Positions 5,418-32,827 of a stretch of DNA of 64,000 bases are shown in pieces. Each line of letters starts with the position of its first letter. Position 1 is the first letter of the stretch. The notes under the pieces are model-generated. The model made no database searches, was not told the DNA's origin, and saw nothing but the letters and a program-made list of their open reading frames with translations. The position numbers were made by a program, and so were the translations under genes. The stretch comes from Pseudoxanthomonas sp. (GTDB taxonomy: Bacteria; Pseudomonadota; Gammaproteobacteria; Xanthomonadales; Xanthomonadaceae), in assembly GCF_002863005.1 (NCBI RefSeq), contig NZ_PKDG01000015.1, forward strand, positions 124,001 to 188,000. The letters are read 5' to 3'.

Positions 5418-6809
5418 ATGACAGAAAACACTTCATCCACGATGACCCCGCGCGAGATCGTGCAGGAACTCGACCGTCATATCGTCGGCCAGCACGCGGC
5501 CAAGCGCGCGGTGGCCATCGCGCTGCGAAACCGCTGGCGCCGCATGCAGCTGGACACCAGCCTGCGCAACGAGGTGATGCCGAAGAACATCCTGCTGATC
5601 GGCCCCACCGGCGTCGGCAAGACCGAGATCGCGCGGCGCCTGGCGACGCTGGCGAATGCGCCATTCGTGAAGGTGGAAGCCACACGCTTCACCGAAGTCG
5701 GTTACGTGGGCAAGGACGTCGAGCAGATCGTCCGCGACCTCGCCGATACCGCGGTGAAGATGTACCGCGAGCAGGCCAAGGCGCGCATGCGCACCCAGGC
5801 CGAGGAGCGTGCGGAAGACCGCATCCTCGACGCGCTGCTGCCGCGTCGCGAGGGCGCCGGCGGCGGGTTCGGCTTCGGCGCGAACACCGCTACCACCACC
5901 GTCGACATCGGCGCGGAACCGTCGTCGAAGGAATCCGAGACCCGGCAGAAGCTGCGCCGCCAGCTGCGCAATGGCGACCTGGACGAGCGCGAGATCGAAC
6001 TCGAGCTCTCCGCCAACGTCGGCGTCGACATCATGACCCCGCCGGGCATGGAGGAGATGGGCCAGCAACTGCGCCAGATGTTCTCCAACCTGGGCGGCAG
6101 CAAGACCCACAAGCGCACCGTGACGATCAAGGCGGCGCGCCCGCAGCTGGTCGAAGAGGAAGCCGGCAAGCTGGTCAACGAGGACGACATCCGTGCGGCC
6201 GCGATCGAGGCCTGCGAGCAGCACGGCATCGTCTTCATCGACGAAATCGACAAGGTCGCCAAGCGCAGCGGCAACGTCGGCGGCGCCGATGTCAGCCGCG
6301 AGGGCGTGCAGCGCGACCTGCTGCCGCTGGTGGAAGGCAGCAACGTGTCGACCAAATACGGCACGGTGAAGACGGACCACATCCTGTTCATCGCGTCCGG
6401 CGCGTTCCACCTGGCCAAGCCGAGCGACCTGATCCCGGAGCTGCAGGGTCGTTTCCCGATCCGCGTCGAGCTGTCGGCACTGAGCAAGGACGACTTCATC
6501 CGCATCCTCACCGAGCCGAAGGCGGCGCTCAGCAAGCAGTACGTGGAGCTGATGAAGACCGAAGGCGTCGCGTTGCGTTTCAGCGATGATGCGATCGACC
6601 GTCTCGCCGAGATCGCCGCGCTGGTCAACGACCGCCAGGAGAACATCGGCGCGCGCCGCCTGCATACGGTGCTGGAGCGTTTGCTCGATACCCTCAGCTA
6701 CGAAGCCCCCGATCGCGATGGGCAGAGTGTGGTCATCGACCGTGCCTACGTCGACGCGCACCTCGGCGAACTGGTGCAGGACCCCGACCTGAGCCGCTAC
6801 ATCCTGTAA
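5418..6809 (+). CDS. hslU: ATP-dependent protease ATPase subunit HslU (ClpY)
   Basis: HslU is the AAA+ unfoldase that feeds substrates to HslV. The 463-residue protein has Walker A GPTGVGKT at 62-69, the pore motif GYVGKD close after it, the intermediate domain with its charged coiled region, Walker B VFIDEID at 272-278, and a C-terminal end LSRYIL that fits the tail inserting into HslV. The frame is open far upstream, overlapping hslV, but the ATG at 5418 ([15 protein letters not shown]) is the family's normal start. hslVU is a two-gene operon here, ending at a palindromic repeat. Confidence 0.97.
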
Positions 6810-19646: not shown

Positions 19647-20579
19647 TTACAGCGCGTAACCGAACTGCTGCTTGAACTGTTCGTTGAATTCGTCGAAGTC
19701 GAAGCGCTGGTTCTGCGTGCCCGGGTGCTCGACCTTCAGCGCGCCCATCAGGTTGCCCATGCGGCCGATGGTCAGCCAGTCGTATCCCTTCTCGATGCCG
19801 AAGATCAGGCCGGCGCGGAAGGCGTCGCCGCATCCGGTCGGGTCCGTCACCCGTCGCTCGTGCGCGGGCGGGATGTCGTAGGTCTTGTCGGGCGTGTGGA
19901 TCTGCGAGCCGTGCGGACCGCGCGTGGTGATGTAGGCCTTCACGCGCTTGACGATCTCCGCCTCGTCCCAGCCCGTGCGTTCCTGCAGCAGGTTCGACTC
20001 GTAGTCGTTGACCGTGACGTAATCGGCCAGCTCGATGAAGTGGCGCAGCTCCTCGCCGTTGAACAGCGGCATGGCCTGGCCGGGGTCGAAGATGAAGGGG
20101 ATGCCGCCTTCGGCGAACTCGGCCGCATTCTGGATCATGCCCTCGCGCCCGTCCGGGCTGACGATGCCGAAGGTCACACCAGGCACGTCCTTCACGTGGT
20201 TCTCGTAGCTGCGCATCATCGCGCCCGGGTGGAACGCGGTGATCTGGTTGTTGTCGTGGTCGGTGGTGATGAACGCCTGCGGGGTGAACAATTCATCGAT
20301 CACCTTCACCTGCGACAGGTTGATGCCCTGCTCGACGAAATGCTCGCGATAGGGGCCGAAGTCCTGGCCCACCGTGGCCATCGGGATCGGGTCGCCGCCC
20401 AGCAGCTTCAGGTTGTAGGCGATGTTGCCGGCGCAGCCGCCGAACTCGCGGCGCATGCGCGGCACCAGGAACGACACGTTAAGGATGTGCACCTTGTCCG
20501 GCAGGATGTGGTTCTTGAACTGGTCCGGGAACACCATGATGGTGTCGTAAGCAAGGGAACCACAGATCAATGCGGACAT
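19647..20579 (-). CDS. PfkB-family carbohydrate/adenosine kinase
   Basis: A 310-residue ribokinase-family kinase. The first PfkB signature is FGGCAGNIAYNLKLLGG near residue 50, and the second is DPTGCGDAFRAG with catalytic Asp252. Related xanthomonad proteins are annotated as adenosine kinase, but the substrate (adenosine or a sugar) is not provable here. The frame is open upstream to 20795, but ATG 20579 (MSALICGSLAYD) starts the kinase fold directly. It is divergent from mreB across a 307-base gap. Confidence 0.88.
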   Translation of the reverse strand: MSALICGSLAYDTIMVFPDQFKNHILPDKVHILNVSFLVPRMRREFGGCAGNIAYNLKLLGGDPIPMATVGQDFGPYREHFVEQGINLSQVKVIDELFTPQAFITTDHDNNQITAFHPGAMMRSYENHVKDVPGVTFGIVSPDGREGMIQNAAEFAEGGIPFIFDPGQAMPLFNGEELRHFIELADYVTVNDYESNLLQERTGWDEAEIVKRVKAYITTRGPHGSQIHTPDKTYDIPPAHERRVTDPTGCGDAFRAGLIFGIEKGYDWLTIGRMGNLMGALKVEHPGTQNQRFDFDEFNEQFKQQFGYAL

Positions 20580-21933
<1,354 letters not shown>

Positions 21934-21949
21934 TGAAGCAGTGACGAGC

Positions 21950-22032
21950 GGAGAGGAGTGAGAAGTGAGTGGAAGAGACTCGCCTGCCGCCGTTCGTTTC
22001 GCCCCGTTCACTCCTCACTTCTCACTCCCCTC
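21950..22032 (+). repeat. Inverted repeat between mreB and mreC
   Basis: GGAGTGAGAAGTGAG at 21955-21969 is perfectly inverted at 22014-22028, in a 115-base gap. The GGAGAGGAGTGAG motif here recurs in degenerate form after rodA (27002-27065), so this may be a mobile-type repeat. The hairpin might also attenuate mreB read-through. Confidence 0.65.
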
Positions 22033-22048
22033 GACCCGTCTCTAGCCC

Positions 22049-23206
22049 GTGCCTTCCTACGCCGGTCCTCCCGTCGCCACCCGCGGTGAAGTCGCCAGCA
22101 CGCTGCGGCTGTTGGGCTATCTCGCGCTGACCATCGCGCTGGTGATCCTGGACCACCGGGGTGGGTGGCTGTCGCACGTGCGCGCGCAGGCCAACGTGGT
22201 GGCACAGCCGCTGTGGTGGCTGGCGGGCCTGCCGGGTCGCGTGACCACCCGTGTCCAGGACGATGCCGCCACCCGGACGGGCCTGATCGAAGAGAACCGT
22301 CGCCTGCGCAACGAAGCGCTGGTGGCCAGTGCCCGGCTCGCGCGGCTGCAGACCGCTGCCGCCGACAACGCCCAGCTGCGTGCGTTGCTGGGCGTGAAGA
22401 CCTCGCGCGGCCTGGATGTGCAGCTCGCGCCGATCCTCGACATCGACCTCGCGCCCGGCCGCCAGCGGCTGGTGCTGGATGCCGGCAGTCGCGCCGGTGC
22501 CACGGTGGGGCAGTCGGTCATCGATGCCGGCGGGCTGATGGGGCAGATCATCGAAACGACGCCCGCCCATTCCACCGTCCTGCTGCTGACCGATCCCGAC
22601 CATGCCGTGCCCGTGGTGATCGCACGCAACGGCGTACGCCTGATCGTCTATGGCCGCGGTCGCAGCGACCTGCTGGAACTGGCCGACGTGCCGCTCAACA
22701 GTGGCGTGAAGGTGGGCGACCTGCTGGTCACGTCGGGCCTGGGCGGCCGGTTCCCCGCGGGCTTTCCCGTCGGCACGGTCGCCGCGCTGAGGCCGGACGA
22801 CAGCCATGCGTTCCTGGTCGGCGACGTCACGCCGGCGGCGCAGCTGGACAGGGGGCGCGATGTGTTGCTGCTGAAGTCCGGGCCGCCGCAGCCGCTGCCC
22901 ACGCCGGATCCGACGCGGTTCCTGCCGGACACGGCTTCGCCAGCGGCAGGCTCAGCCGGTCCGGCGGAAATGGGGTCGTCCACGTCCGCGACCCAAAGCC
23001 CCTCTCCCACCGGGAGAGGGGGTGGGGTGAGTGGCAACGAAGGAAGTGCTGGTACAGGCACGCAGTCTGCGTCCACGCCCGCGACGACGTCCCCGCAAGC
23101 GCCGCGCCCTGCGAACGTCCCGACCCTCACCCCAACCCCTCTTCCTAGGGAAGAGGGGCCAAAAGCGCCGGCCTCGAACCCTCCGACAACGGAGCCGCAG
23201 CGATGA
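22049..23206 (+). CDS. mreC: Rod shape-determining protein MreC, with repeat-derived C-terminal tail
   Basis: MreC is a periplasmic scaffold anchored by one N-terminal helix (residues 20-38, LLGYLALTIALVILD). A coiled coil (residues 75-115) and the two beta domains follow (VGQSVIDAGGLMGQIIE, GGRFPAGFPVG). The family core ends near residue 280. The last 100 or so residues are Pro/Ser/Thr-rich and are encoded partly by a palindromic repeat element (22998-23160). The start is GTG at 22049. Length is 385 residues, longer than most MreC. The stop overlaps the mreD start by four bases. Confidence 0.93.
   Translation: MPSYAGPPVATRGEVASTLRLLGYLALTIALVILDHRGGWLSHVRAQANVVAQPLWWLAGLPGRVTTRVQDDAATRTGLIEENRRLRNEALVASARLARLQTAAADNAQLRALLGVKTSRGLDVQLAPILDIDLAPGRQRLVLDAGSRAGATVGQSVIDAGGLMGQIIETTPAHSTVLLLTDPDHAVPVVIARNGVRLIVYGRGRSDLLELADVPLNSGVKVGDLLVTSGLGGRFPAGFPVGTVAALRPDDSHAFLVGDVTPAAQLDRGRDVLLLKSGPPQPLPTPDPTRFLPDTASPAAGSAGPAEMGSSTSATQSPSPTGRGGGVSGNEGSAGTGTQSASTPATTSPQAPRPANVPTLTPTPLPREEGPKAPASNPPTTEPQR
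22998..23160 (+). repeat. Palindromic repeat element inside mreC, copy A
   Basis: The left unit is CCCCTCTCCCACCGGGAGAGG plus GGTGGGGTGAG (22999-23030); the right unit (23122-23159) is its inverted form, GACCCTCACCCCAACCCCTC then TTCCTAGGGAAGAGGGG. Each unit is itself palindromic. The element lies in frame in the mreC C-terminal tail, encoding SPSPTGRGGGVSGNEG and PTLTPTPLPREEG. A copy occurs in mrdA (25663-25826). Confidence 0.88.
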
Positions 23207-23688
23207 ATCGCGCGCGTACCGGCTGGCTGATGCCGTTGAGCATCGTCCTGGCGCTGCTGCTGGGCCTGCTGCCGCTGCCCGACGTGATGCAGCCGTTGCG
23301 CCCCTACTGGCTGGCGCTGGTGGTGGCGTACTGGGTGATCGAAGCGCCGGACAGCGCGGGCCTGGGTTTCGCTGTCATCGTCGGCCTGGTCGCCGACCTG
23401 ATGTTCGGCACGCTGCTGGGCGAACAGGCGCTGCGCCTGCTGATCATGGCCTTCATCCTGCAGCGCTTCCGCGCGCGGCTGCGCTTCTTCCCGATGTCGC
23501 AGCAGGCGCTCGCCATCGGCGGCCTGCTGCTCAACGATCGCATCGTGACCACCGTGGTGCACCTGGCGCTGGGCGAGCCGACGCTGCCGTGGCAGTACTG
23601 GTGGGCGCCGTTGCTGGGCATGGTGTTCTGGCCGCCGCTGTTCGTGCTGATGGACGCGCTGCGGCTCGGTCGCCGCAGGCGGGGCTGA
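23203..23688 (+). CDS. mreD: Rod shape-determining membrane protein MreD
   Basis: MreD is a 161-residue inner-membrane protein with five to six hydrophobic segments; it links MreC to the elongation complex. The conserved GLVADLMFGTLLGEQALRLL block is present. The ATG at 23203 overlaps the mreC stop (ATGA). Confidence 0.94.
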   Translation: MNRARTGWLMPLSIVLALLLGLLPLPDVMQPLRPYWLALVVAYWVIEAPDSAGLGFAVIVGLVADLMFGTLLGEQALRLLIMAFILQRFRARLRFFPMSQQALAIGGLLLNDRIVTTVVHLALGEPTLPWQYWWAPLLGMVFWPPLFVLMDALRLGRRRRG

Positions 23689-23691
23689 GCC

Positions 23692-25860
23692 ATGCTCGGG
23701 CCCCGCCGTCGCGGCAAGAATCCGCACGCCGAAGCCGACCAGTTCCGTCGCCGCGCGGTGACCGGTTTCGTGGTGGTCGCGCTGTGCCTGCTGGGCCTGG
23801 GCGCGTGGTACTTCAAGCTGCAGGTCATCGACCACGCCGACTACGCCACGCGCTCGGAAGCGAACCGCATCCGCCCGCGGCCGGTCGTGCCCGGCCGCGG
23901 CACCATCTATGACCGCAACGGCCTGCTCCTGGCGGAGAACGTGCCCGCGTTCCGCCTCGACGTGACGCCCGACAAGGTCAAGGAGCCGGCCAAGCTGATC
24001 GCCGAACTGGCGAAGATCATCGATCTCGACCCCGAGGACATCGCGCGCTTCGAGGCCACGCGCAAGGCGACGCGCGGGTTCCGCCCGATCACGCTGAAGC
24101 TGCGCGTGAGCGAAGAGGAGATGGCGCGTTTCGCGGTCGACCGCTGGCGCTATCCCGGGGTTGAGCTGGTTCCCTATCTCACGCGGCGCTATCCCTACGG
24201 CGAACTGTTCGCGCACATCGTCGGCTACGTCGGGCGCGTGGACGAGAAAGACCTGGCGTCGCTGGGCGAGATCAATGCCGCGCTGACCCACATCGGCAAG
24301 ACCGGCCTGGAGCGCTATTACGACGAGCAGTTGCGCGGGAAGATCGGGTACGAAAAAGTCGAAACGAACGTGGAAGGCCGCGCGCTGCGCGTGGTCGGCC
24401 GCGTGCCGGCGCAGGCGGGCACCGACCTGCGCCTGAGCGTGGACGCGAAACTGCAGCAGGCGATCGTCGATTCCTTCGGCGAACTGGAGGGTTCGGCGAT
24501 CGCGGTCGATCCGCGCACCGGTGAGATCCTGGCGATGGTCAGCCTGCCCAGTTACGACCCGAACCTGTTCGTCAACGGGATTTCCAGCACGGATTTCAAG
24601 CGGCTCAACGACAACCCGTCACGGCCGCAGTTCAACCGCCTGGTGCTGGGTGGCGTGGCGCCGGGCTCGACGCTGAAGCCGTTGATCGCGCTCGCCGGCC
24701 TGGACAGCGGCAAGCGCAAGCCGGAGGACACGGTGGTGTCGACCGGCATGTTCTACCTGCCCGGCACGAGCCGCGGCTGGGGCGACGCCAGCCGCCGCGG
24801 CCATGGCGTGACCAACCTGCGCAAGTCGATCTCGCAATCGGTGAACACGTACTACTACCGGCTGGCGCTCGATCTCGGCATCGCGCAGTTCGACGACTAC
24901 ATGGAGCACTACGGGTTCGGGCAGCCGACCGGCGTCGACCTGAGGGGCGAGATCGGCGGCATCCTGCCGTCGCCGGCGGCCAAGCTGAAATCGCGCAAGG
25001 AGCGCTGGTATCCGGGCGACACCGTCAATGTCGCGATCGGGCAGGGCGACTGGAAAGTCACGCCCCTGCAGTTGGTGCGCGCCACCGCCGGCATCGCCAG
25101 CGGGCAGTTGCGGCGCCCGCACCTGGTCCGGGAATCGCGCGTCGGTTTCGACCGTCCCTGGGAGCCGATGCCGCAACCGGCGCCCATCGCGATCAGCCCG
25201 AATCCCGCGAACGTGGAGGTGGTGCGACTGGGCATGCAGGACACCATGCAGCCCGGCGGCACCGGTTGGCGCGTCGCCCTGAACGCCCCCTACCTGATGG
25301 CGGGCAAGACCGGCACCGCGCAGGTGATCAGCCGCCGTGGCACCGCAGCGGTCGATCCGCGCAGCCTGCCCATGCACCTGCGCCACCGTTCCCTGTTCGT
25401 CGGTTTCGCGCCGGCCGACAACCCGACGATCGCCATCGCCATCGCGGTGGAAGGCGGCGGCTACGGCGGCAGCACCGCCGGGCCGATGGCGCGCAAGATC
25501 TTCGATGCCTACCTGCTGGGGAAGATGCCGGAGAAGGAGGGCGAGGAGGCCGTGCCCGTCGGCACTACGCCAGCGACACCGCCCGCTGCGCCGACACCGG
25601 CCGCACCGACGACGACACCGCCTGCGAATCCGGCGCCGGGCACAAGTCCGAGCCAGGGCACTAGCCCCTCTCCCACCGGGAGAGGGATTGGGGTGAGGGG
25701 CAGCGAAGGTCGTGTGGGTGCGAACTCCAGTAACTCGACCGCGCTCGCGCCGCGCTCCTCTTCTATCCCCGGCATCGCGCCTGCCCCGACCCTCACCCCA
25801 ACCCCTCTCCCGGGAGAAGAGGGGCTCGCAACCGCCTCCGCTTGGAGGGCTTCGGCATGA
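23692..25860 (+). CDS. mrdA: Penicillin-binding protein 2 (MrdA), with repeat-derived C-terminal tail
   Basis: PBP2 is the elongation transpeptidase that cross-links new wall with RodA. A single N-terminal helix (residues 24-44) is followed by the PBP dimer domain and the transpeptidase domain: Ser326-X-X-Lys329 (GSTLKP), Ser383-Val-Asn385, and Lys539-Thr-Gly541. At 722 residues it is about 90 longer than E. coli PBP2. The extra sequence, after about residue 625, is a Pro/Thr/Ala-rich tail encoded in part by the repeat element at 25663-25826. The stop overlaps rodA by four bases. Confidence 0.95.
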   Translation: MLGPRRRGKNPHAEADQFRRRAVTGFVVVALCLLGLGAWYFKLQVIDHADYATRSEANRIRPRPVVPGRGTIYDRNGLLLAENVPAFRLDVTPDKVKEPAKLIAELAKIIDLDPEDIARFEATRKATRGFRPITLKLRVSEEEMARFAVDRWRYPGVELVPYLTRRYPYGELFAHIVGYVGRVDEKDLASLGEINAALTHIGKTGLERYYDEQLRGKIGYEKVETNVEGRALRVVGRVPAQAGTDLRLSVDAKLQQAIVDSFGELEGSAIAVDPRTGEILAMVSLPSYDPNLFVNGISSTDFKRLNDNPSRPQFNRLVLGGVAPGSTLKPLIALAGLDSGKRKPEDTVVSTGMFYLPGTSRGWGDASRRGHGVTNLRKSISQSVNTYYYRLALDLGIAQFDDYMEHYGFGQPTGVDLRGEIGGILPSPAAKLKSRKERWYPGDTVNVAIGQGDWKVTPLQLVRATAGIASGQLRRPHLVRESRVGFDRPWEPMPQPAPIAISPNPANVEVVRLGMQDTMQPGGTGWRVALNAPYLMAGKTGTAQVISRRGTAAVDPRSLPMHLRHRSLFVGFAPADNPTIAIAIAVEGGGYGGSTAGPMARKIFDAYLLGKMPEKEGEEAVPVGTTPATPPAAPTPAAPTTTPPANPAPGTSPSQGTSPSPTGRGIGVRGSEGRVGANSSNSTALAPRSSSIPGIAPAPTLTPTPLPGEEGLATASAWRASA
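25663..25826 (+). repeat. Palindromic repeat element inside mrdA, copy B
   Basis: The same bipartite element as in mreC: left unit CCCCTCTCCCACCGGGAGAGG and GATTGGGGTGAGG (25665-25698), right inverted unit ACCCTCACCCCAACCCCTC then CCGGGAGAAGAGGGG (25789-25824). It is read in the same frame as the mreC copy, giving SPSPTGRGIGVRGSEG and PTLTPTPLPGEEG. Confidence 0.88.
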
Positions 25861-26993
25861 CCGATCTCCTTCGCTGGGGTTTCGACCTGCTGCGGCACGT
25901 GCTGCGCACGCTGGACTGGCCTTTGCTCGGCGCCCTGGTGGCGCTGATGGGGATCGGCCTGGCCGTGCTGTACAGCGCCGGTGGCGAAGCGCTGGGGTCG
26001 CGGCTGGTGCTGGCGCAGGGCGTGCGCTTCGGCGTCGGCCTGGTGGCGATGTGGGCACTATCCCGGGTGACGCCGGTGCGCCTGCGCGCCTGGACGCCGG
26101 GCGTGTTCGCCGTGGCGTTGCTGCCGCTGGTGCTGGTGCTGTTCATCGGCACCGGCAAGCACGGCGCGCACTGGATCGACCTGAAGTTCTTCTACCTGCA
26201 GCCGTCGGAACTGCTGAAGATCGCGTTGCCGATGATGCTGGCGTGGTACCTGCATCGCGAGCCGCTGCCGCCGGGCTGGCGCACCACGCTCGTGGCGGCG
26301 CTGCTGATCGGCCTGCCGACCGGGTTGATCCTGCTGCAGCCGGACTTCGGCACGGCGATGCTGGTCGCGGCCAGCGGGGTGTTCGGCCTCTACCTCGCCG
26401 GCCTGTCGTGGTGGTGGTTCATCACGGCCGGCGTGCTGGGCGGTACCGCCGTGGGACTGGTGATGTTCGCGCCGATCTCGTGGTTCTCGTTCCTGCGCGA
26501 GTATCAGCAGAACCGCATCCTGACGTTCCGCGATCCGGAAAACGATCCACTCGGCGCGGGCTGGAACATCCTGCAGTCGAAGATCGCCATCGGCGGCGGC
26601 GGCTGGAACGGCAAGGGTTGGGGCCAGGGGTCGCAGTCCCACCTGGATTACCTGCCGGAGCATACGACCGACTTCATCTTCTCGGTGCTGTCGGAAGAAT
26701 TCGGCTGGATCGGCGTGGCGGTGACGCTGTCGCTGTACCTGTTCGTCGTCGGACGCTGCCTGTGGATCGCGATGGACGCGCGCGATACGTATTCGCGCCT
26801 GCTCGCCGGCACGCTGGGCATGGCACTGTTCGTCTATGTCATCGTCAACGGCGGCATGGTCTCGGGCCTGCTGCCGGTGGTCGGCGTGCCGATGCCCCTG
26901 CTGAGTTACGGCGGCACCTCGGCGGTGTCGCTGCTCGCCGGCCTGGGGCTGGTGATGGCGGTGCGTGCGCATCGTCCCGTGCATGGGTATTGA
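25857..26993 (+). CDS. rodA: Peptidoglycan glycosyltransferase RodA (SEDS)
   Basis: RodA polymerises lipid II together with PBP2. The 378-residue protein has ten predicted membrane segments. The conserved SEDS blocks are present: QPDFGTAM (the catalytic Asp is in QPDFGTA), WNILQSKIAIGGGGWNGKG, LPEHTTDFIFSVL and PLLSYGGTSAVS. The ATG at 25857 overlaps the mrdA stop; a TTG five codons upstream is unlikely. Confidence 0.96.
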   Translation: MTDLLRWGFDLLRHVLRTLDWPLLGALVALMGIGLAVLYSAGGEALGSRLVLAQGVRFGVGLVAMWALSRVTPVRLRAWTPGVFAVALLPLVLVLFIGTGKHGAHWIDLKFFYLQPSELLKIALPMMLAWYLHREPLPPGWRTTLVAALLIGLPTGLILLQPDFGTAMLVAASGVFGLYLAGLSWWWFITAGVLGGTAVGLVMFAPISWFSFLREYQQNRILTFRDPENDPLGAGWNILQSKIAIGGGGWNGKGWGQGSQSHLDYLPEHTTDFIFSVLSEEFGWIGVAVTLSLYLFVVGRCLWIAMDARDTYSRLLAGTLGMALFVYVIVNGGMVSGLLPVVGVPMPLLSYGGTSAVSLLAGLGLVMAVRAHRPVHGY

Positions 26994-27001
26994 GTAGTGC
27001 G

Positions 27002-27065
27002 TGGAGAGGAGTGAGGCGTGAGTAGAAGCAGGTGTTGCTGTTCCTCGCTCCGCTCCACTCACTGC
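27002..27065 (+). repeat. Degenerate inverted repeat after rodA
   Basis: GTGGAGAGGAGTGAGGCGTG on the left and CCTCGCTCCGCTCCACTCAC on the right are imperfectly inverted. The GGAGAGGAGTGAG core matches the left arm of the repeat after mreB. It fills most of the 123-base gap before mltB. Confidence 0.5.
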
Positions 27066-27116
27066 CGCGTCCCAACGTTCACGATTTCCCGCACCCTGCA
27101 TGCTACCCTCGCCCCG

Positions 27117-28256
27117 ATGATGCGAAACGCACTTTCCTGCCTTCTGGTGCTGGGCCTGGCGTCCTGCGCCACACCGCAACCGCCGCCGCCGGCGGCTTCG
27201 ACGACGCCTTCCGCTGCCGCTCCGGCGACGCCCGCCGAGACGTCGGTCGAGCGTGTGGCCGAGGTGCCGCCGGAAGCGCTGAAGCCGGTCGATTTCCTCA
27301 CCGCGCGTGCGCAGTTCGTGCGCGATACCTCCGCGAAGTACGGCATCGCACCCGCCGAGATCGAGGCGACGCTGGCCAAGGCGCAGTTCCTCGACAGCGT
27401 GGTCGCGGCGATGTCGCGACCGGCGGAACGGGTCAAGCCGTGGAGCGAATACCGGGTCGGCTTCCTGACCCAGACCCGCATCGACGGGGGCCGCGCATTC
27501 ATGGCGCAGCACCGCGACGAGCTGACCCGCGTCGAGCAGCAGTACGGTGTGCCGGCCGAGGTGATCGTGTCGATCATCGGCGTGGAGACCAACTATGGCG
27601 GCTTCACCGGTCGCCACAAGGTGCTGGATGCGCTGTACACGCTCGCGTTCCGCTATCCGCGCACCGGCAATCCGGAGCGTGCGGCTTACGAATACCGTCG
27701 CGAGCAGTTCTTCCGCGACGAACTGGCGCAGCTGTTCGCGCTGGGACGGGAAGAGAAGCTCGACATCGCCTCGCTGACCGGCAGCTATGCCGGCGCGATG
27801 GGGCTGGGCCAGTTCATGCCATCGAGCTACCGCGAGTTCGCAGTGGACGGCAACGGCGACGGTCGCCGTGATCTGTTCGCCACGTATCCGGACATCTTCG
27901 CCTCGATCGCCAATTACTTCCGCAAGAAGGGTGGCGAACGCGGCGGCTGGGTGCCGGGCGGCGCGGTCGTCGCGCGCGCCCAGCTGCAGGACGGGTTCGC
28001 CGAGTTCAACCCGGAGACCTGGACACCCGACTACTCGCTCGCGCAACTGGCCGAGAAGGGCTACCGGCCGCTCGACCCGGTCGCGCCGGACGCGATGGCC
28101 ACGCTGGTGCAACTGGATGGCGCGGACGGCAAGCAGTACTGGCTGGGCTTCCAGAACTACTACGCGATCACCCGGTACAACAATTCCAAGATGTACGCGA
28201 TGGCGGTCTACCAGCTGTCGCAGGCGATCGCCGGCCGCGAGATTCCGCCGGCATGA
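27117..28256 (+). CDS. mltB: Lytic murein transglycosylase B (lipoprotein)
   Basis: MltB cleaves peptidoglycan with formation of anhydromuramic ends, in the periplasm from the outer membrane. The 379-residue protein has a lipobox (LASC, about Cys16). The catalytic Glu157 lies in GVETNYGG, and GAMGLGQFMPSSYREFAVD and GWVPGG are family blocks. Two adjacent ATGs (27117, 27120) could serve as starts. A TACCCT sequence 9 bases before the ATG could be a -10 box. The stop overlaps rlpA (ATGA). Confidence 0.93.
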   Translation: MMRNALSCLLVLGLASCATPQPPPPAASTTPSAAAPATPAETSVERVAEVPPEALKPVDFLTARAQFVRDTSAKYGIAPAEIEATLAKAQFLDSVVAAMSRPAERVKPWSEYRVGFLTQTRIDGGRAFMAQHRDELTRVEQQYGVPAEVIVSIIGVETNYGGFTGRHKVLDALYTLAFRYPRTGNPERAAYEYRREQFFRDELAQLFALGREEKLDIASLTGSYAGAMGLGQFMPSSYREFAVDGNGDGRRDLFATYPDIFASIANYFRKKGGERGGWVPGGAVVARAQLQDGFAEFNPETWTPDYSLAQLAEKGYRPLDPVAPDAMATLVQLDGADGKQYWLGFQNYYAITRYNNSKMYAMAVYQLSQAIAGREIPPA

Positions 28257-29416
28257 AGTGGCTGGCCCTGCCGCTGCTGGCGGTGGCCCTGGCCGCGTGC
28301 AGCACGGCGCCGAAGAAGCCACCGGCGCCCTCCGCGGGCGGCACCGTGCGGCCGGCGCCGGCGACGCCCTCGCCGGCCATCGCGGGCAAGGACTGCTCGC
28401 GCTATGCGCCGGCGCAGGAAGACCTGTCCACGCGTGGCGACTACACCGCCGGTGGTCTGTACAAGCCCGGCGTGTCGGACACCACGCCCGACCACGTGCC
28501 CGACCTGGATTGCATCCGCGAACCCGTGGTCACCGCCGAGGCGCGATCGCGGGTCGGCAACAAGTCGCCGTATTCGGTGCTCGGCAAGCAGTACCGCGTC
28601 CTCGACCGCGTCGACGGCTACGTGGAGCAGGGCACCGCCTCGTACTACGGCAACAAGTTCCATGGCCGTCGAACCTCCAACCAGGAGGTGTACGACATGT
28701 ACGCCTACAGTGCCGCGCACAAATCGCTGCCCTTGCCCAGCTTCGCGCGCGTGACCAACCTGGACAACGGCAAGTCGGTGGTCGTGCGGGTGAACGATCG
28801 TGGTCCTTTCCACGAGGGCCGCGTGATCGACCTGAGTTATGCCGCCGCGGTGCGCCTGGGCATCACCCAGCGCGGGACGGGTCGCGTGGAAGTGCGCGCG
28901 CTGACGCCGGAAGGCGCCACGCTCGCGGCCACGCCCGCGACGGATTCGCCTCCCTCGGCGATGGACCAGCTCGTCGGGACGTTGCCTGCAGAGGCGGTCC
29001 GCTACCACGTGCCAGCCAAGCCGGGCGATGTGCCCAGTGCCGCCGGCTTCGAGGCGTGGATGAAAGCCAACGGGGTACGTGTCGCGTCCGGCAAGCCGGG
29101 CGCCCCTGTGGTCACCAGCCCTGCCGCGAGTGTGCCGCTTGCCGCCGTGCCGGCGAAGGCCCCTCCGCCGGCCGCGGCGACGCCATCCACCGTGCAGCTG
29201 CAGGTCGCCAGTTTCTCCAGTCGCGACAATGCCGACCGCGCACTCGCGCGCCTGACCGCCGCCGGCATCGCCGATGCGCGGCTCAGCGATGTGCCCGGCG
29301 CGGACCGTCCGCTGTGGCGATTGCGCGTGGGGGCCGCCGATGCCGCGTCGGCCGAAGCATTGGCGGGCAGGATCGCGAGTCTGGGTTTCGGACGCCCGCA
29401 GATCGTTCGCGACTAG
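28253..29416 (+). CDS. rlpA: Septal lytic transglycosylase RlpA with SPOR domain
   Basis: RlpA is an outer-membrane lipoprotein acting on denuded glycans at the septum. The 387-residue protein has a lipobox (LAAC, Cys16), a double-psi beta-barrel (GTASYYGNKFHGRRTSN through VRVNDRGPF and IDLSYAAA), a Pro/Ala linker and a C-terminal SPOR domain (VQLQVASFSSRDNADRAL). Translation is probably coupled to mltB by the ATGA overlap. Confidence 0.95.
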   Translation: MKWLALPLLAVALAACSTAPKKPPAPSAGGTVRPAPATPSPAIAGKDCSRYAPAQEDLSTRGDYTAGGLYKPGVSDTTPDHVPDLDCIREPVVTAEARSRVGNKSPYSVLGKQYRVLDRVDGYVEQGTASYYGNKFHGRRTSNQEVYDMYAYSAAHKSLPLPSFARVTNLDNGKSVVVRVNDRGPFHEGRVIDLSYAAAVRLGITQRGTGRVEVRALTPEGATLAATPATDSPPSAMDQLVGTLPAEAVRYHVPAKPGDVPSAAGFEAWMKANGVRVASGKPGAPVVTSPAASVPLAAVPAKAPPPAAATPSTVQLQVASFSSRDNADRALARLTAAGIADARLSDVPGADRPLWRLRVGAADAASAEALAGRIASLGFGRPQIVRD

Positions 29417-29476
29417 CGTCGACGTCCGGCTGCCGGTTTTTTACGTCTTTCCAACCCACGCGGTAGCCGGCCTCCC

Positions 29477-29482
29477 TACAAT
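29477..29482 (+). promoter_or_regulatory. Putative -10 box of the D,D-carboxypeptidase gene
   Basis: TACAAT (5 of 6 matches to the consensus) lies 49 bases before the ATG in the 115-base gap after rlpA, with AGGAG (29517-29521) as a Shine-Dalgarno sequence in the leader. No good -35 box is apparent at the usual distance. Confidence 0.4.
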
Positions 29483-29531
29483 GTTCGCCTTGCACCGTCA
29501 GGCCCAGGGCCTTGCCAGGAGTTTTCCGCCG

Positions 29532-30728
29532 ATGAAGTTCCGTTTCGTTCTCGCCGCGCTCGCGACCACCGCCATGGGTCTGGCCATCGCCCAGACCCCC
29601 GCGCCGGCCACGCCGCCCGCCGCCGCCGCGGCTCCCGTCGCCATCCCGCCCGCGCCCACGCCGACGGCGACCGCATGGGTGCTGATGGACTACATCACCG
29701 GGCAGGTACTGGCGGGCGAGAACTACAACGAGCGTGTCGAGCCGGCCAGCATCACCAAGGTGATGACGTCGTACGTGCTGGCCGCCGAGCAGAAGAACGG
29801 CAAGATCAAGCCGACCGACCAGGTGATGATGAGCGAGCGCGCCTGGCGCGAGGGCGGCGCCGGCACCGACGGCAGCTACAGCGGTTTCGCCGTCAACAAG
29901 ACCGCGCCGCTGCTGGACATGGAAACCGGCATGGCCGTGCAGTCCGGCAACGACGCCGCCATCGCCCTGGCCGAGCACGCCGCCGGCAGCCAGGAAGCCT
30001 TCGCGTCGCTGATGAACAACTACGCCGCGCAGATCGGCATGAAGGGCTCGCACTTCGTCAACGCGCATGGCCTGTCGGCGCCGGAGCATTACTCCACCGC
30101 GTACGACCTGGCGTTGCTGGGCCGCGCCCTGATCCGCGAGTATCCGGAGCAGTACGCCTTCAACAAGATCAAGGAATTCACGGTCGGCACCATCACCCAG
30201 CCGAACCGCAACCTGCTGCTGTGGCGCGATCCGAGCGTGGACGGCATCAAGACCGGCCACCATTCCGCCGCGGGCTACTGCCTGATGAGCTCGGCCAAGC
30301 GCGGCGACCAGCGCCTGATCGCGGTGGTGATGGGATCCACCTCGGAGAAGCAGCGCGCCGACGACAGCCTGGCATTGTTGAACTGGGGCTTCCGCTTCTA
30401 CGAAACCCACCGCCTCTACGAGCCGGGCAAGGCCATCGCCACGCAGCGCGTTTGGAAGGGCAAGACCAAGGATGTGCAGCTGGGCGTGGCCCAGCCGATG
30501 CTGGTCAGCGTGCCGCGGGGCCGCTACGACGACCTGAAGCCGACGATGGACGTGCCGAAGACGCTGGTGGCGCCGATCACCGCAGGCCAGGCCATCGGGA
30601 TGGTGAAGGTCACGCTGGACGGCAAGGTCGTCGCGCAGTCGCCGCTGGTGGCGATCACGCCGATCGAGGAAGCCGGCTTCTTCAAGCGCCTGTGGGACGC
30701 ATTCTGGATGTGGTGGGAGTCGGAGTGA
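29532..30728 (+). CDS. dacC: D-alanyl-D-alanine carboxypeptidase (S11, DacA/DacC type)
   Basis: This penicillin-binding protein trims pentapeptide side chains in the periplasm. The 398-residue precursor has a signal peptide (cleavage near AIA-QT), a Pro/Ala linker, and the three active-site motifs: Ser73-X-X-Lys76 (SITK), Ser138-Gly-Asn140, and Lys240-Thr-Gly. A beta-rich domain follows, and the C-terminus FFKRLWDAFWMWWES is an amphipathic, Trp-rich membrane anchor. The frame is open upstream to 29274 but only ATG 29532 gives a signal peptide. DacA versus DacC cannot be decided. Confidence 0.94.
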   Translation: MKFRFVLAALATTAMGLAIAQTPAPATPPAAAAAPVAIPPAPTPTATAWVLMDYITGQVLAGENYNERVEPASITKVMTSYVLAAEQKNGKIKPTDQVMMSERAWREGGAGTDGSYSGFAVNKTAPLLDMETGMAVQSGNDAAIALAEHAAGSQEAFASLMNNYAAQIGMKGSHFVNAHGLSAPEHYSTAYDLALLGRALIREYPEQYAFNKIKEFTVGTITQPNRNLLLWRDPSVDGIKTGHHSAAGYCLMSSAKRGDQRLIAVVMGSTSEKQRADDSLALLNWGFRFYETHRLYEPGKAIATQRVWKGKTKDVQLGVAQPMLVSVPRGRYDDLKPTMDVPKTLVAPITAGQAIGMVKVTLDGKVVAQSPLVAITPIEEAGFFKRLWDAFWMWWESE

Positions 30729-30750
30729 TCCGGCGCACCGCACGATGAGG

Positions 30751-30779
30751 AAAGGCCGGCGCATGCCGGCCTTTTTCTT
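30751..30779. terminator. Terminator between the carboxypeptidase and EamA genes
   Basis: A 10-bp stem (30751-30760 with 30765-30774, AAAGGCCGGC and complement) with loop GCAT is followed by TT and a T-rich stretch on the plus strand. It lies between two convergent genes and the A-run on the left would serve as a T-run for the minus strand, so it may work both ways. Confidence 0.8.
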
Positions 30780-30785
30780 GCCTGC

Positions 30786-31679
30786 CTACAGGCCGGCCGC
30801 GATCACCGCGATGGCGAGGATCGCGAGCGGAATCGCCAGCAGGGTGGTGCGGCTCAGCCGCTCGCGGAACAGCCACGTGCCGGCCAGCGTGCCCAGGACC
30901 ACCACGCCGATGTTCATCGTCGAGAACACCACCGCCGGATGGTCGGGCAGCGCGCGGTGGGCCTTCACGTAGAACAGGATGTTGCCGAAGTTCAGCGCCC
31001 CGAGCAGCAGGCCCGTGCCGAGCGCGGGCAGCGTGAGCGCCGGGCCGCCACGCAGGCGCCGTGCGCCCTGCACGCCCAGCATCACGATGAAGGCGGCGAC
31101 GAAGGCGACCTGCAGCGAGGCCGCGAACGGCGTGCCGGCTGCAGCGATGTGCTTCAACAGCACGTCCACGCTGGCGTAGCCGACCAGCACCACCAGCGGC
31201 AATGCCCAGCCGGTCCAGCCGCCCTCGGCCCCGGCCGACGCGGTGCGCGGGCGCAGCGCCAGCAACACGATGGCGACCAGGCCCACTGCGAGACCGGCGA
31301 GACGCAGCGCATTGGCCTGTTCACCGAACCAAAGGAAGGCGGCCAGCAGCGACAGTACCAGCGACATGCGCTGTGCGATGTCGGTGCGCACGATGCCGGC
31401 CGCCTTCACCGAGGCCGACAGCGCCAGGAAGATGCCCGGCAGCAGGACCGCCAGCAGCGCGAGCGCGGGCCACGGAGCATGCGCAGCGGCCAGTGCCGAC
31501 AGCGGCGGATCCAGCAGGGTGAAGCACAGCAGGGAGGCGGCCAGGTAGTTCCAGGCGATGCCTTGGGCCGTGTCGATGCCGCGCCGCTGCATGAGCTTCA
31601 GCAGGACCGACACGAGCACGCTGCAGACGACGCTGGAGAGCAGATAGGGCACGGCGGACCTCGCGGGAAGGGCGGGCAT
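30786..31679 (-). CDS. EamA/DMT-superfamily transporter
   Basis: A 297-residue inner-membrane protein with ten hydrophobic segments in two similar halves, typical of EamA-type drug/metabolite transporters. GIAWNYLAASLLCF and GALNFGNILFYVKAHRALP are recognisable blocks, the second resembling the small-molecule or EamA C-terminal repeat. The substrate is unknown. The ATG at 31679 was chosen because the upstream open frame adds only low-complexity Arg-rich residues. Confidence 0.85.
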   Translation of the reverse strand: MPALPARSAVPYLLSSVVCSVLVSVLLKLMQRRGIDTAQGIAWNYLAASLLCFTLLDPPLSALAAAHAPWPALALLAVLLPGIFLALSASVKAAGIVRTDIAQRMSLVLSLLAAFLWFGEQANALRLAGLAVGLVAIVLLALRPRTASAGAEGGWTGWALPLVVLVGYASVDVLLKHIAAAGTPFAASLQVAFVAAFIVMLGVQGARRLRGGPALTLPALGTGLLLGALNFGNILFYVKAHRALPDHPAVVFSTMNIGVVVLGTLAGTWLFRERLSRTTLLAIPLAILAIAVIAAGL

Positions 31680-31765
31680 TATCGCGGTATCGCCTCCCCG
31701 CCTTGCCCGATGGCCTTTGGATGTCACTCTTTTCGTGTGTAGCCAGCGAAACCGCATTCTTCGCC

Positions 31766-31771
31766 TATCAT
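31766..31771 (+). promoter_or_regulatory. Putative -10 box of the CsgG-type gene
   Basis: TATCAT lies about 93 bases before the GTG start at 31865, which has a strong AAGGAGAAG Shine-Dalgarno sequence near 31851. It implies a leader of about 85 bases. No clear -35 box was seen. Confidence 0.3.
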
Positions 31772-31864
31772 CGCGGTCGGGCGACCCGGCACGCGAACGC
31801 AGGCCACGCCCGCAATGGAAGGTCCGCGGGGTGCGGGCACCATCATTCTCAAGGAGAAGCACGC

Positions 31865-32827
31865 GTGAACAGGGGAACCTGCAAGAAGATGACGATGACG
31901 GCCTGCCTGCTGATGGCGGCCGCTGCGACGACACCCGCCTGGGCGCAGCGCCAGAGCGCGCAGGACCAGCGCAAGCAGCAGACCGCGGAGATCCCGACCT
32001 GCAGCAAGCCGCTGGGTACCATCTCGGTGATCGAGCCCGAGGACGGCGTGAACTGGTGGAGCGGCCAGCAGCTGCCGGCACCGTCGAAGCTGATCAAGGT
32101 GTTCGTCAACAAGTCGCGCTGCTTCACGCTGGTGGACCGTGGCGTGGGCATGGGTGCGGCGATGGCCGAGCGCGATCTGGCCGCCAGTGGCGAGCTGCGC
32201 AACCGCTCCAACATCGGCAAGGGCCAGATCCGTGCCGCCGATTACGTGCTGGTGCCCGACCTGATCTCGCAGAACAGCAATGCCGGCGGCAATGCCATCA
32301 GCGGCCTGCTGGGCGGACTGATGGGTGGCAACGTCGGTCGAGTGGTGGGCGGACTGGACTTCAAGAAGAAGACCGCCGACGTCGTCCTGACCGTCACCGA
32401 CGTGCGTTCTTCCGAGCAGGTCGCCATGGCCGAAGGCAGCGCCAAGAAGACCGACATCGGCTGGGGCGCGGGCGGCAGCCTGTTCACCGGCAGCCACTGG
32501 GGCGGTGGCGGTGCCAGCGGCTACGCCAACACCGAGATCGGCCAGGTCATCACGCTGGCCTACTTGCAGGCCTACACCAACCTGGTCAGCGAGCTGGGCG
32601 GCCTGTCCGGCAATGCCTCGGCATCCAATGCCCAGCAGGCGGTGGAGATGACCAAGCCCGGCCGCCTGTTCGCCAACCCGAAGGGTACCGGCAAGGCCGT
32701 GCGCGACCTGGACCCCGGCATGATGCTGTACCCCACCGGCAACAAGGACGGGGTGATGTGGGAAGTCGAGGACGAACTCGGCAACAAGGGCTGGGTCTCG
32801 TCCAGCCTGGTGCAGCTGGCGCGCTGA
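31865..32827 (+). CDS. CsgG/HfaB-family secreted protein with C-terminal SH3-like domain
   Basis: A 320-residue precursor with a cleavable signal peptide (ACLLMAAAATTPAWA-Q, site near residue 27). The middle (KVFVNKSRCFTLVDRG, AADYVLVPDLISQ, VLTVTDVRSSEQVAMAEG) matches the CsgG/HfaB fold of secretion-related proteins. A Gly-rich stretch holds the hydrophobic GNAISGLLGGLMGGN. The last 60 residues (GRLFANPKGTGKAVRDLDPG ... GWVSSSLVQL) look like a bacterial SH3 domain. No lipobox is present, unlike CsgG. Function unknown; no curli genes are nearby. GTG start with good RBS. Confidence 0.8.
   Translation: MNRGTCKKMTMTACLLMAAAATTPAWAQRQSAQDQRKQQTAEIPTCSKPLGTISVIEPEDGVNWWSGQQLPAPSKLIKVFVNKSRCFTLVDRGVGMGAAMAERDLAASGELRNRSNIGKGQIRAADYVLVPDLISQNSNAGGNAISGLLGGLMGGNVGRVVGGLDFKKKTADVVLTVTDVRSSEQVAMAEGSAKKTDIGWGAGGSLFTGSHWGGGGASGYANTEIGQVITLAYLQAYTNLVSELGGLSGNASASNAQQAVEMTKPGRLFANPKGTGKAVRDLDPGMMLYPTGNKDGVMWEVEDELGNKGWVSSSLVQLAR

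Follow-up and report, generated by a model that had tools for sequence, protein, structure and literature searches.

Inverted triplex-motif repeat doublets in frame in mrdA and mreC of Pseudoxanthomonas: conservation as nucleic acid and a candidate DUF559 partner

Background

The triplex motif TM of Escherichia coli (TM/PIT; Holder et al. 2015, PMC4666352) is present, in the published description, in 23 copies with 5 close inverted pairs. All of these copies were given as intergenic and were reported to be unassociated with mobile elements, and their sequence formed a triplex in vitro, for which that account gives no support in vivo. REPINs (Bertels and Rainey 2011, PMC3116915) are described as inverted REP doublets that form, together with a spacer, a small replicating unit, and in the REPIN/RAYT system, as outlined there, the enzyme gene is flanked by the cognate repeat. 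Intragenic GTAG/CGTC REPs and Rickettsia palindromic elements (PMC3733652), as that source presents them, are palindromes that have entered housekeeping genes with the reading frame kept; dimers are frequent, and some of the insertions are at gene ends.

The locus studied here shares features with each of these systems. In the window (the whole stretch of 64,000 nt of Pseudoxanthomonas sp. DNA that was analysed), mreC and mrdA each contain a tail-to-tail pair of repeats built on the plan described for TM/PIT, that is, CCCTCTCCC, a short loop, GGGAGAGGG, and GGGGTGAGGG as the third strand. Arms of the mreC/mrdA type possess three segments able to form a triplex, and their own genome holds many near-identical copies; in contrast to the E. 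coli copies as described, those of the window are intragenic, each of the two genes mreC and mrdA containing a doublet in its reading frame, and DUF559 genes are bracketed by the motif. The doublets resemble REPINs, as described, in being inverted with a short spacer, and the DUF559 genes are flanked by repeats as are those of RAYTs, whereas the doublets here are within coding sequence and not extragenic, and the candidate partner is a nuclease of Vsr-like fold. No good TM-type copy flanked any of the 20 Y1_Tnp genes examined among 105 genus matches (two poor ones had 5 mismatches), which argues against a cognate RAYT as the mover. From the intragenic palindromes of PMC3733652, as far as they are described, the present elements differ in being paralogous copies in two genes of one operon with conservation between species at the level of DNA, and no constant GTAG/CGTC tag was seen by eye beside the palindrome in the own-genome copies. 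The predicted fold of DUF559 matches the catalytic domains of Vsr (1vsr) and the homing endonuclease I-Bth0305I (3r3p), and its conserved polar residues agree with this; we infer that a selfish-nuclease logic may be common to homing endonucleases and DUF559. Unlike these enzymes, the candidate nuclease DUF559 stands alone between inverted palindromes.

Results and discussion

Position and structure of the elements in mreC and mrdA

The four genes concerned are on the forward strand: mreC (nt 22049–23206), mreD (23203–23688), mrdA encoding PBP2 (23692–25860), and rodA (25857–26993, with the ATG at 25857 assigned by reading the sequence). The stop codons of mreC and mrdA overlap the starts of mreD and rodA, respectively, as ATGA. 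The element in mreC, identified by sequence comparison as a tail-to-tail TM/REP repeat pair in frame, spans nt 22997–23159, and that in mrdA, identified likewise, spans 25663–25826. In mrdA, the left repeat (25663–25699, forward strand) consists of a palindrome (25666–25686) and the tail TTGGGGTGAGGG (25688–25699), the third strand of the triplex; it is followed by a spacer (25700–25789) homologous to that of mreC, and by the right repeat (25790–25826, reverse strand) with its tail at 25790–25801 and palindrome at 25803–25823. Measured as an inverted pair, the mrdA element has 47-nt arms, 83% complementary and 70 nt apart. Its left 57 nt match mreC 22997–23053 at 86% and its right 41 nt match mreC 23119–23159 at 90%, and since both half-matches are at an offset of 2666 nt, the internal spacing of the two elements is identical. 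With up to 3 mismatches, the palindrome pattern was found 4 times in the 64-kb window, against 0.04 expected. These comparisons bear out the initial annotation, which had noticed the same bipartite element in both genes.

Translation of the mreC element gives SPSPTGRGGGVSGNEG and VPTLTPTPLPREEG (about residues 317–371 of 385), and that of the mrdA element gives SPSPTGRGIGVRGSEG and APTLTPTPLPGEEG (about residues 658–712 of 722), so that the matching peptides read in the same frame, as first annotated, are indeed seen in both translations. Both elements are C-terminal to the last Pfam domain of their protein, the MreC domain (to residue 276) and the transpeptidase domain of PBP2 (to residue 604). 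They also end less than 50 nt before the overlapped stop codons, with the mreD start 44 nt past the mreC element and the rodA start 31 nt past the mrdA element; mreD itself has no element. The folding z-scores of the two elements were -4.95 and -4.35, and no Rfam match reached the gathering score within 20000–32000 of the window. A different repeat (GGAGAGGAGTGAG...) with an inverted partner occupies the gap between mreB and mreC (21940–22043) and occurs again after rodA (27003–27028).

The repeat unit and its copies in the genome

The repeat unit is a REP-like motif, CCCTCTCCC-N3-GGGAGAGGGG-TTGGGGTGAGGG, which can also be written CCCCTCTCCC-N3-GGGAGAGGGG-TTGGGGTGAGGG; on comparison with the motif as published (PMC4666352), we identify it as the intrastrand-triplex motif TM. 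Valid triads (C.G*G and T.A*A/T) made up 458 of 500 over 50 arms, counted on one strand and with no shuffled control. At position 5 of the third strand, where T or A fits a triplex, T was present in 40 arms, A in 9 and G in 1, although these are counts of non-independent events and four of the nine A came from clade-B copies. This T/A pattern favours the triplex reading of the arms, as judged from base composition at that site.

With up to 3 mismatches, 31 tails were counted in the own genome of 3.96 Mb; the read-backwards control is itself high (27 versus 31) and uninformative because the motif is nearly symmetric, and the copy counts of the other genus genomes are to be read in the same way. 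Five close pairs occur in this genome, all with tails inward, at spacings of 112, 112, 394, 633, and 733. Most single copies appear to be intergenic (30 loci), the intergenic and intragenic calls here and for other pairs being simple ORF and GC3 readings and not annotation; some copies are in longer open frames yet ahead of the likely start.

At least two further copies are in frame in the own genome, both single and in mid-gene: one in a protein which we take from its sequence to be Mfd-like (LTPTPLPEGEG, the same frame as the right arm), and one in a presumably IcmF-like mutase (SPSPQPLSHEGRG, a different frame). The possibility, raised with the initial annotation, that the element is in frame in many unrelated genes thus held for two other genes, one in a different frame, and many were not found. 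Over the 30 mfd loci read, of 38 matches, the repeat was in frame at 7 (one a poor match); the same linker holds different inserts in several other genomes and little or none in many, so that it appears as a site tolerant of in-frame repeats. Within the mfd loci L347–L376, genomes G007, G029, and G037 carry a different repeat, encoding an SRLRGND-like peptide.

Distribution of the doublets

The mrdA gene was present in all 38 genus genomes, and 37 mreC-mrdA loci were compared, that of G024 being left out as it is split over contigs. Doublets were found in both genes in 10 of the 37 (G000, G009, G010, G013, G016, G017, G018, G019, G027, and G029), with the right palindrome broken in mrdA of G009 and G013; in mreC only in three (G023, G028, and G030); in mrdA only in one (G012); in mrdA, together with a half element in mreC, in one (G007); and in neither gene in 22. 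Presence in the two genes is uncoupled in some species, an outcome that the initial annotation had named as counting against its reading. The doublet genomes form two separate clades, A and B, with element-free sisters; all but one of the 21 clade-A doublets have a spacing of 112 nt, and all four clade-B doublets one of 121. In mrdA of G009 (L102, about 5450–5480) and G013 (L093), the right-hand repeat is itself interrupted by a further palindrome-like insert (CGGGGACTTC.TTCGGT...). In mreC of G007 (L092), the right half of the element is gone, the protein ends early, and the overlap with mreD is lost; from this genome, the mreC tail seems dispensable.

By PBP2 sequence, the closest named relatives belong to Pseudoxanthomonas. 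Outside these genomes, 51 named loci, a few of them lacking one gene or its end, had a doublet in nine, all from Pseudoxanthomonas already counted, and the lone match in mreC of Xanthomonas among them was a single, poor copy with 5 mismatches. A strict pair pattern gave 11 pairs in 8 of the 38 genus genomes, all inside mreC or mrdA. When the pattern was loosened, 21 of the 395 family genomes had pairs. Twelve of these were Pseudoxanthomonas, with 19 pairs, of which mreC and mrdA accounted for 17 and other sites in G028 for two; the other nine genomes, from outside the genus, had 12 pairs. Contexts were read for 9 of those 12, which appeared to be intergenic or upstream of a start, and for the two additional G028 pairs. 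Doublet genomes had 5–50 other copies versus 0–14 in doublet-free genomes; G010 had 52 repeats.

Common descent and the shared reading frame

The spacers of mreC and mrdA, compared in codon register over 11 mreC and 9 mrdA clade-A copies, had an identity of 0.487; permuting the codons gave 0.302 (sd 0.028), and none of 2000 permutations reached the observed identity. For the spacer core alone, the identity was 0.432, which was reached once in 2000. In clade B, the mreC and mrdA copies were 67–76% identical. Identical spacing and homologous spacers show the element of mrdA to be a paralogue of that in mreC, and the basal G023, with a doublet in mreC only, suggests that the insertion in mreC came first.

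Two independent chance insertions, sharing a frame because the others hold stops, would be one account of the common frame. In both window copies, three of the six frames are stop-free, of which only one is in the inserted orientation. Among the 25 doublets, frame +0 was open in all by definition, +1 was closed in 23 and +2 in 16, while of the reverse frames -0 was open in 20, -1 closed in 20, and -2 open in 23. The +0 frame was the sole open one of the plus orientation in 16 of 25 copies, as such chance insertions would predict, so that viability often fixes the frame within the inserted orientation; with both orientations taken together, about three frames are available. The initial wording, which spoke of one frame out of a possible six, needs qualification accordingly; the sole stop-free frame that it had named as evidence against its own reading occurs, in the plus orientation, in those 16 copies. 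Against separate insertions are the identical spacing and homologous spacers of the two copies and the quite different spacings of the three other close own-genome pairs (394, 633, and 733), and we regard this account as very improbable. The suspicion that the shared frame is more than two independent coincidences was justified, as the spacers share descent; shared descent and viability together explain the same frame in mreC and mrdA.

Conservation at the level of nucleic acid

Conservation was examined at fourfold-degenerate sites of the 170-nt copies of clade A, excluding the 172-nt mrdA copy of G009 and the four clade-B copies. Fourfold-site identity of the arms was 0.950 in mrdA (9 copies) and 0.954 in mreC (11 copies), compared with 0.717 and 0.663 in the gene bodies and 0.726 and 0.613 in the spacers; none of the 26-codon windows of the bodies (0 of 115 and 0 of 49) reached the identity of the arms. 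At codon positions 1 and 2, the arms (0.83–0.92) were below the bodies (0.93–0.98), and the arms were conserved alike across all codon positions. The mrdA spacer was flat over the three positions (0.62/0.61/0.65), while that of mreC showed some codon periodicity (0.73/0.76/0.61). This pattern of fourfold sites and codon positions means that the constraint is mainly on nucleic acid: what persists across species is the two arms as hairpin- or triplex-forming nucleic acid, and not the peptide.

PBP2 and MreC are physical partners, and the initial annotation had considered a shared function of their tails, in which one kind of segment, derived from the repeat, would serve both proteins within the elongasome. 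The agreement of frame and peptides between the two genes, retained in many clade-A species, the near confinement of genus pairs to mreC and mrdA, and the periodicity of the mreC spacer would be in keeping with such a function. Against it stand arms that are uniform over codon positions and far above the synonymous sites of their genes, an mrdA spacer lacking codon periodicity, the absence of the element from both genes in 22 of 37 genomes, the truncated mreC of G007, and TM-type repeats in frame in two other proteins. We therefore hold a function of the peptides to be highly improbable, and the shared peptide of mreC and mrdA is a by-product.

A second account of conserved synonymous sites is that the doublet acts as an mRNA hairpin that tunes expression of the operon, for example at the mreC/mreD and mrdA/rodA junctions, through slowed ribosomes or exonucleases. 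The location of the elements 44 and 31 nt ahead of overlapping starts and the folding z-scores would suit this role. Covariation between the arms of the long stem was weak (two-sided pairs, 6 of 500 shuffles, with an equal number of such pairs in a slid control), which leaves room for selection on RNA structure, but the local hairpins had no excess of covariation (154 of 500). In addition, the element is absent in the majority of genomes noted above, two other genes carry single copies far from their ends, and presence of the doublet tracks the genome-wide repeat load, so that a regulatory hairpin is in our judgement quite unlikely. The protein tails look instead like tolerated mobile DNA, maintained at the nucleic-acid level.

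DUF559 genes bracketed by palindromic repeats

Repeat pairs of 387–394 nt enclose a small DUF559 gene. Among 68 of the 85 genus DUF559 matches, a set including every match from clade-A genomes (the 17 omitted were at contig edges, multidomain, low-scoring or not fetched), 56 had inverted palindromes on both sides (score of at least 20; other borders give 55) and 12 were unbracketed, compared with 2 bracketed of 121 control windows. In a coarse regular-expression sorting into repeat types I–IV, 25 of the 56 bracketed loci were assigned to the TM-type repeat and the others to at least three further families of similar plan. On the DUF559 tree, repeat type required 15 changes versus 38.4 with shuffled labels (none of 200 as low), a clustering partly due to orthologous near-copies. 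In a sample from Pseudomonadota, taken from the best-scoring genes and hence non-random, 28 of 29 new loci could be used, the remaining one being at a contig edge; 13 were bracketed and 15 were not, with 1 of 112 controls bracketed. No published report of a link between DUF559 and palindromic repeats was found in the open-access library searched. In G018, the TM-type repeat also brackets intergenic stretches of 703–727 nt (L218, 1480–2246; L243, 1480–2270), which contain large nested palindromes and no evident gene.

The predicted DUF559 fold (pLDDT 81) matched 3hrl (3.9e-9), 3r3p (4.5e-6), and 1vsr (2.6e-3) in Foldseek searches, and residues D57, E68, D70, Q73, H74, and R82 were invariant over 39 sequences. 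According to this model, DUF559 is a protein of Vsr/homing-endonuclease fold and a putative nuclease.

The type-I DUF559 arrangement was present in 14 of 15 doublet genomes versus 5 of 22 others (Fisher, 2.9e-5). Phylogenetic comparison left too few contrasts for a firm link: there were 8 and 4 independent ones, of which the 3–4 informative ones were all favourable (p = 0.125–0.25). G030, with a doublet and without type-I DUF559, had the most decayed arms, with 7 mismatches versus 0–5 (median 1) in the other 24 doublets, and G021 and G032 had neither type-I DUF559 nor doublets. Taken on sequence evidence, we infer that the DUF559 protein may move or maintain TM-type repeats, and a DUF559 nuclease is the likely but unproven candidate for the partner of the doublet.

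Gene conversion or replication template switching among TM copies might also keep the arms uniform, with no dedicated enzyme and with DUF559 genes as passengers. Near-identical repeats genome-wide, the same change on both sides of the mreC arms of G013, and a locally compensated change in mreC of G000 are what such exchange would leave, and the internal TAG in the type-I DUF559 gene of G010, a genome with 52 repeats, fits passengers. E. coli K-12 points the same way, as its DUF559 gene ycjD is unbracketed despite abundant TM copies: one TM copy is located 167 nt past its 3′ end and a TM-like palindrome covers that end, but no inverted bracket was detected (flank score 9; L377, 1406–1619, fabI-ycjD), so that ycjD adds proximity of DUF559 and TM, not a bracket. 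However, exchange among copies leaves unexplained the correspondence between individual palindrome families and the DUF559 lineages they enclose, and we consider it somewhat unlikely.

Interpretation of the mrdA element

The mreC/mrdA doublets are best read as a mobile repeat doublet that lies in frame and was copied from one gene of the operon to another. More fully, we assign a probability of about 0.72 to the reading of the mrdA element as an in-frame TM doublet, paralogous to that of mreC and kept as nucleic acid, with DUF559 as a candidate acting in trans. The element consists of two facing TM-type repeats, REP-like and triplex-capable, in frame in the low-complexity tail of PBP2, and would be a short non-autonomous form of a mobile family; one of the two doublets would be the source of the other, or both would go back to a single parent. 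Three circumstances would make such a doublet tolerable in mreC and mrdA: length and sequence of the tails are free to vary; the stop codon is overlapped by the following gene, so that coding sequence is all the space there is at the 3′ end; and insertions that bring in a stop are lost. The TM family may in turn be moved, kept uniform, or both, in trans by the DUF559 protein.

A broader proposal is that a large class of palindromic repeats independent of RAYTs, comprising TM/PIT and its sister families, has DUF559 proteins as its dedicated nucleases for mobility or maintenance, with every DUF559 lineage recognising a palindrome of its own. The mreC/mrdA doublets would then be non-autonomous members, lodged in two cell-wall genes and kept at the DNA level by that nuclease; to this proposal we give a little less than an even chance. 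The common tail of PBP2 and MreC advises caution against reading shared peptides as elongasome motifs, since conservation at the DNA level can be visible in protein. If the broader proposal is true, a nuclease family with cognate inverted repeats would constitute a parallel to the RAYTs, built on a fold like that of homing endonucleases.
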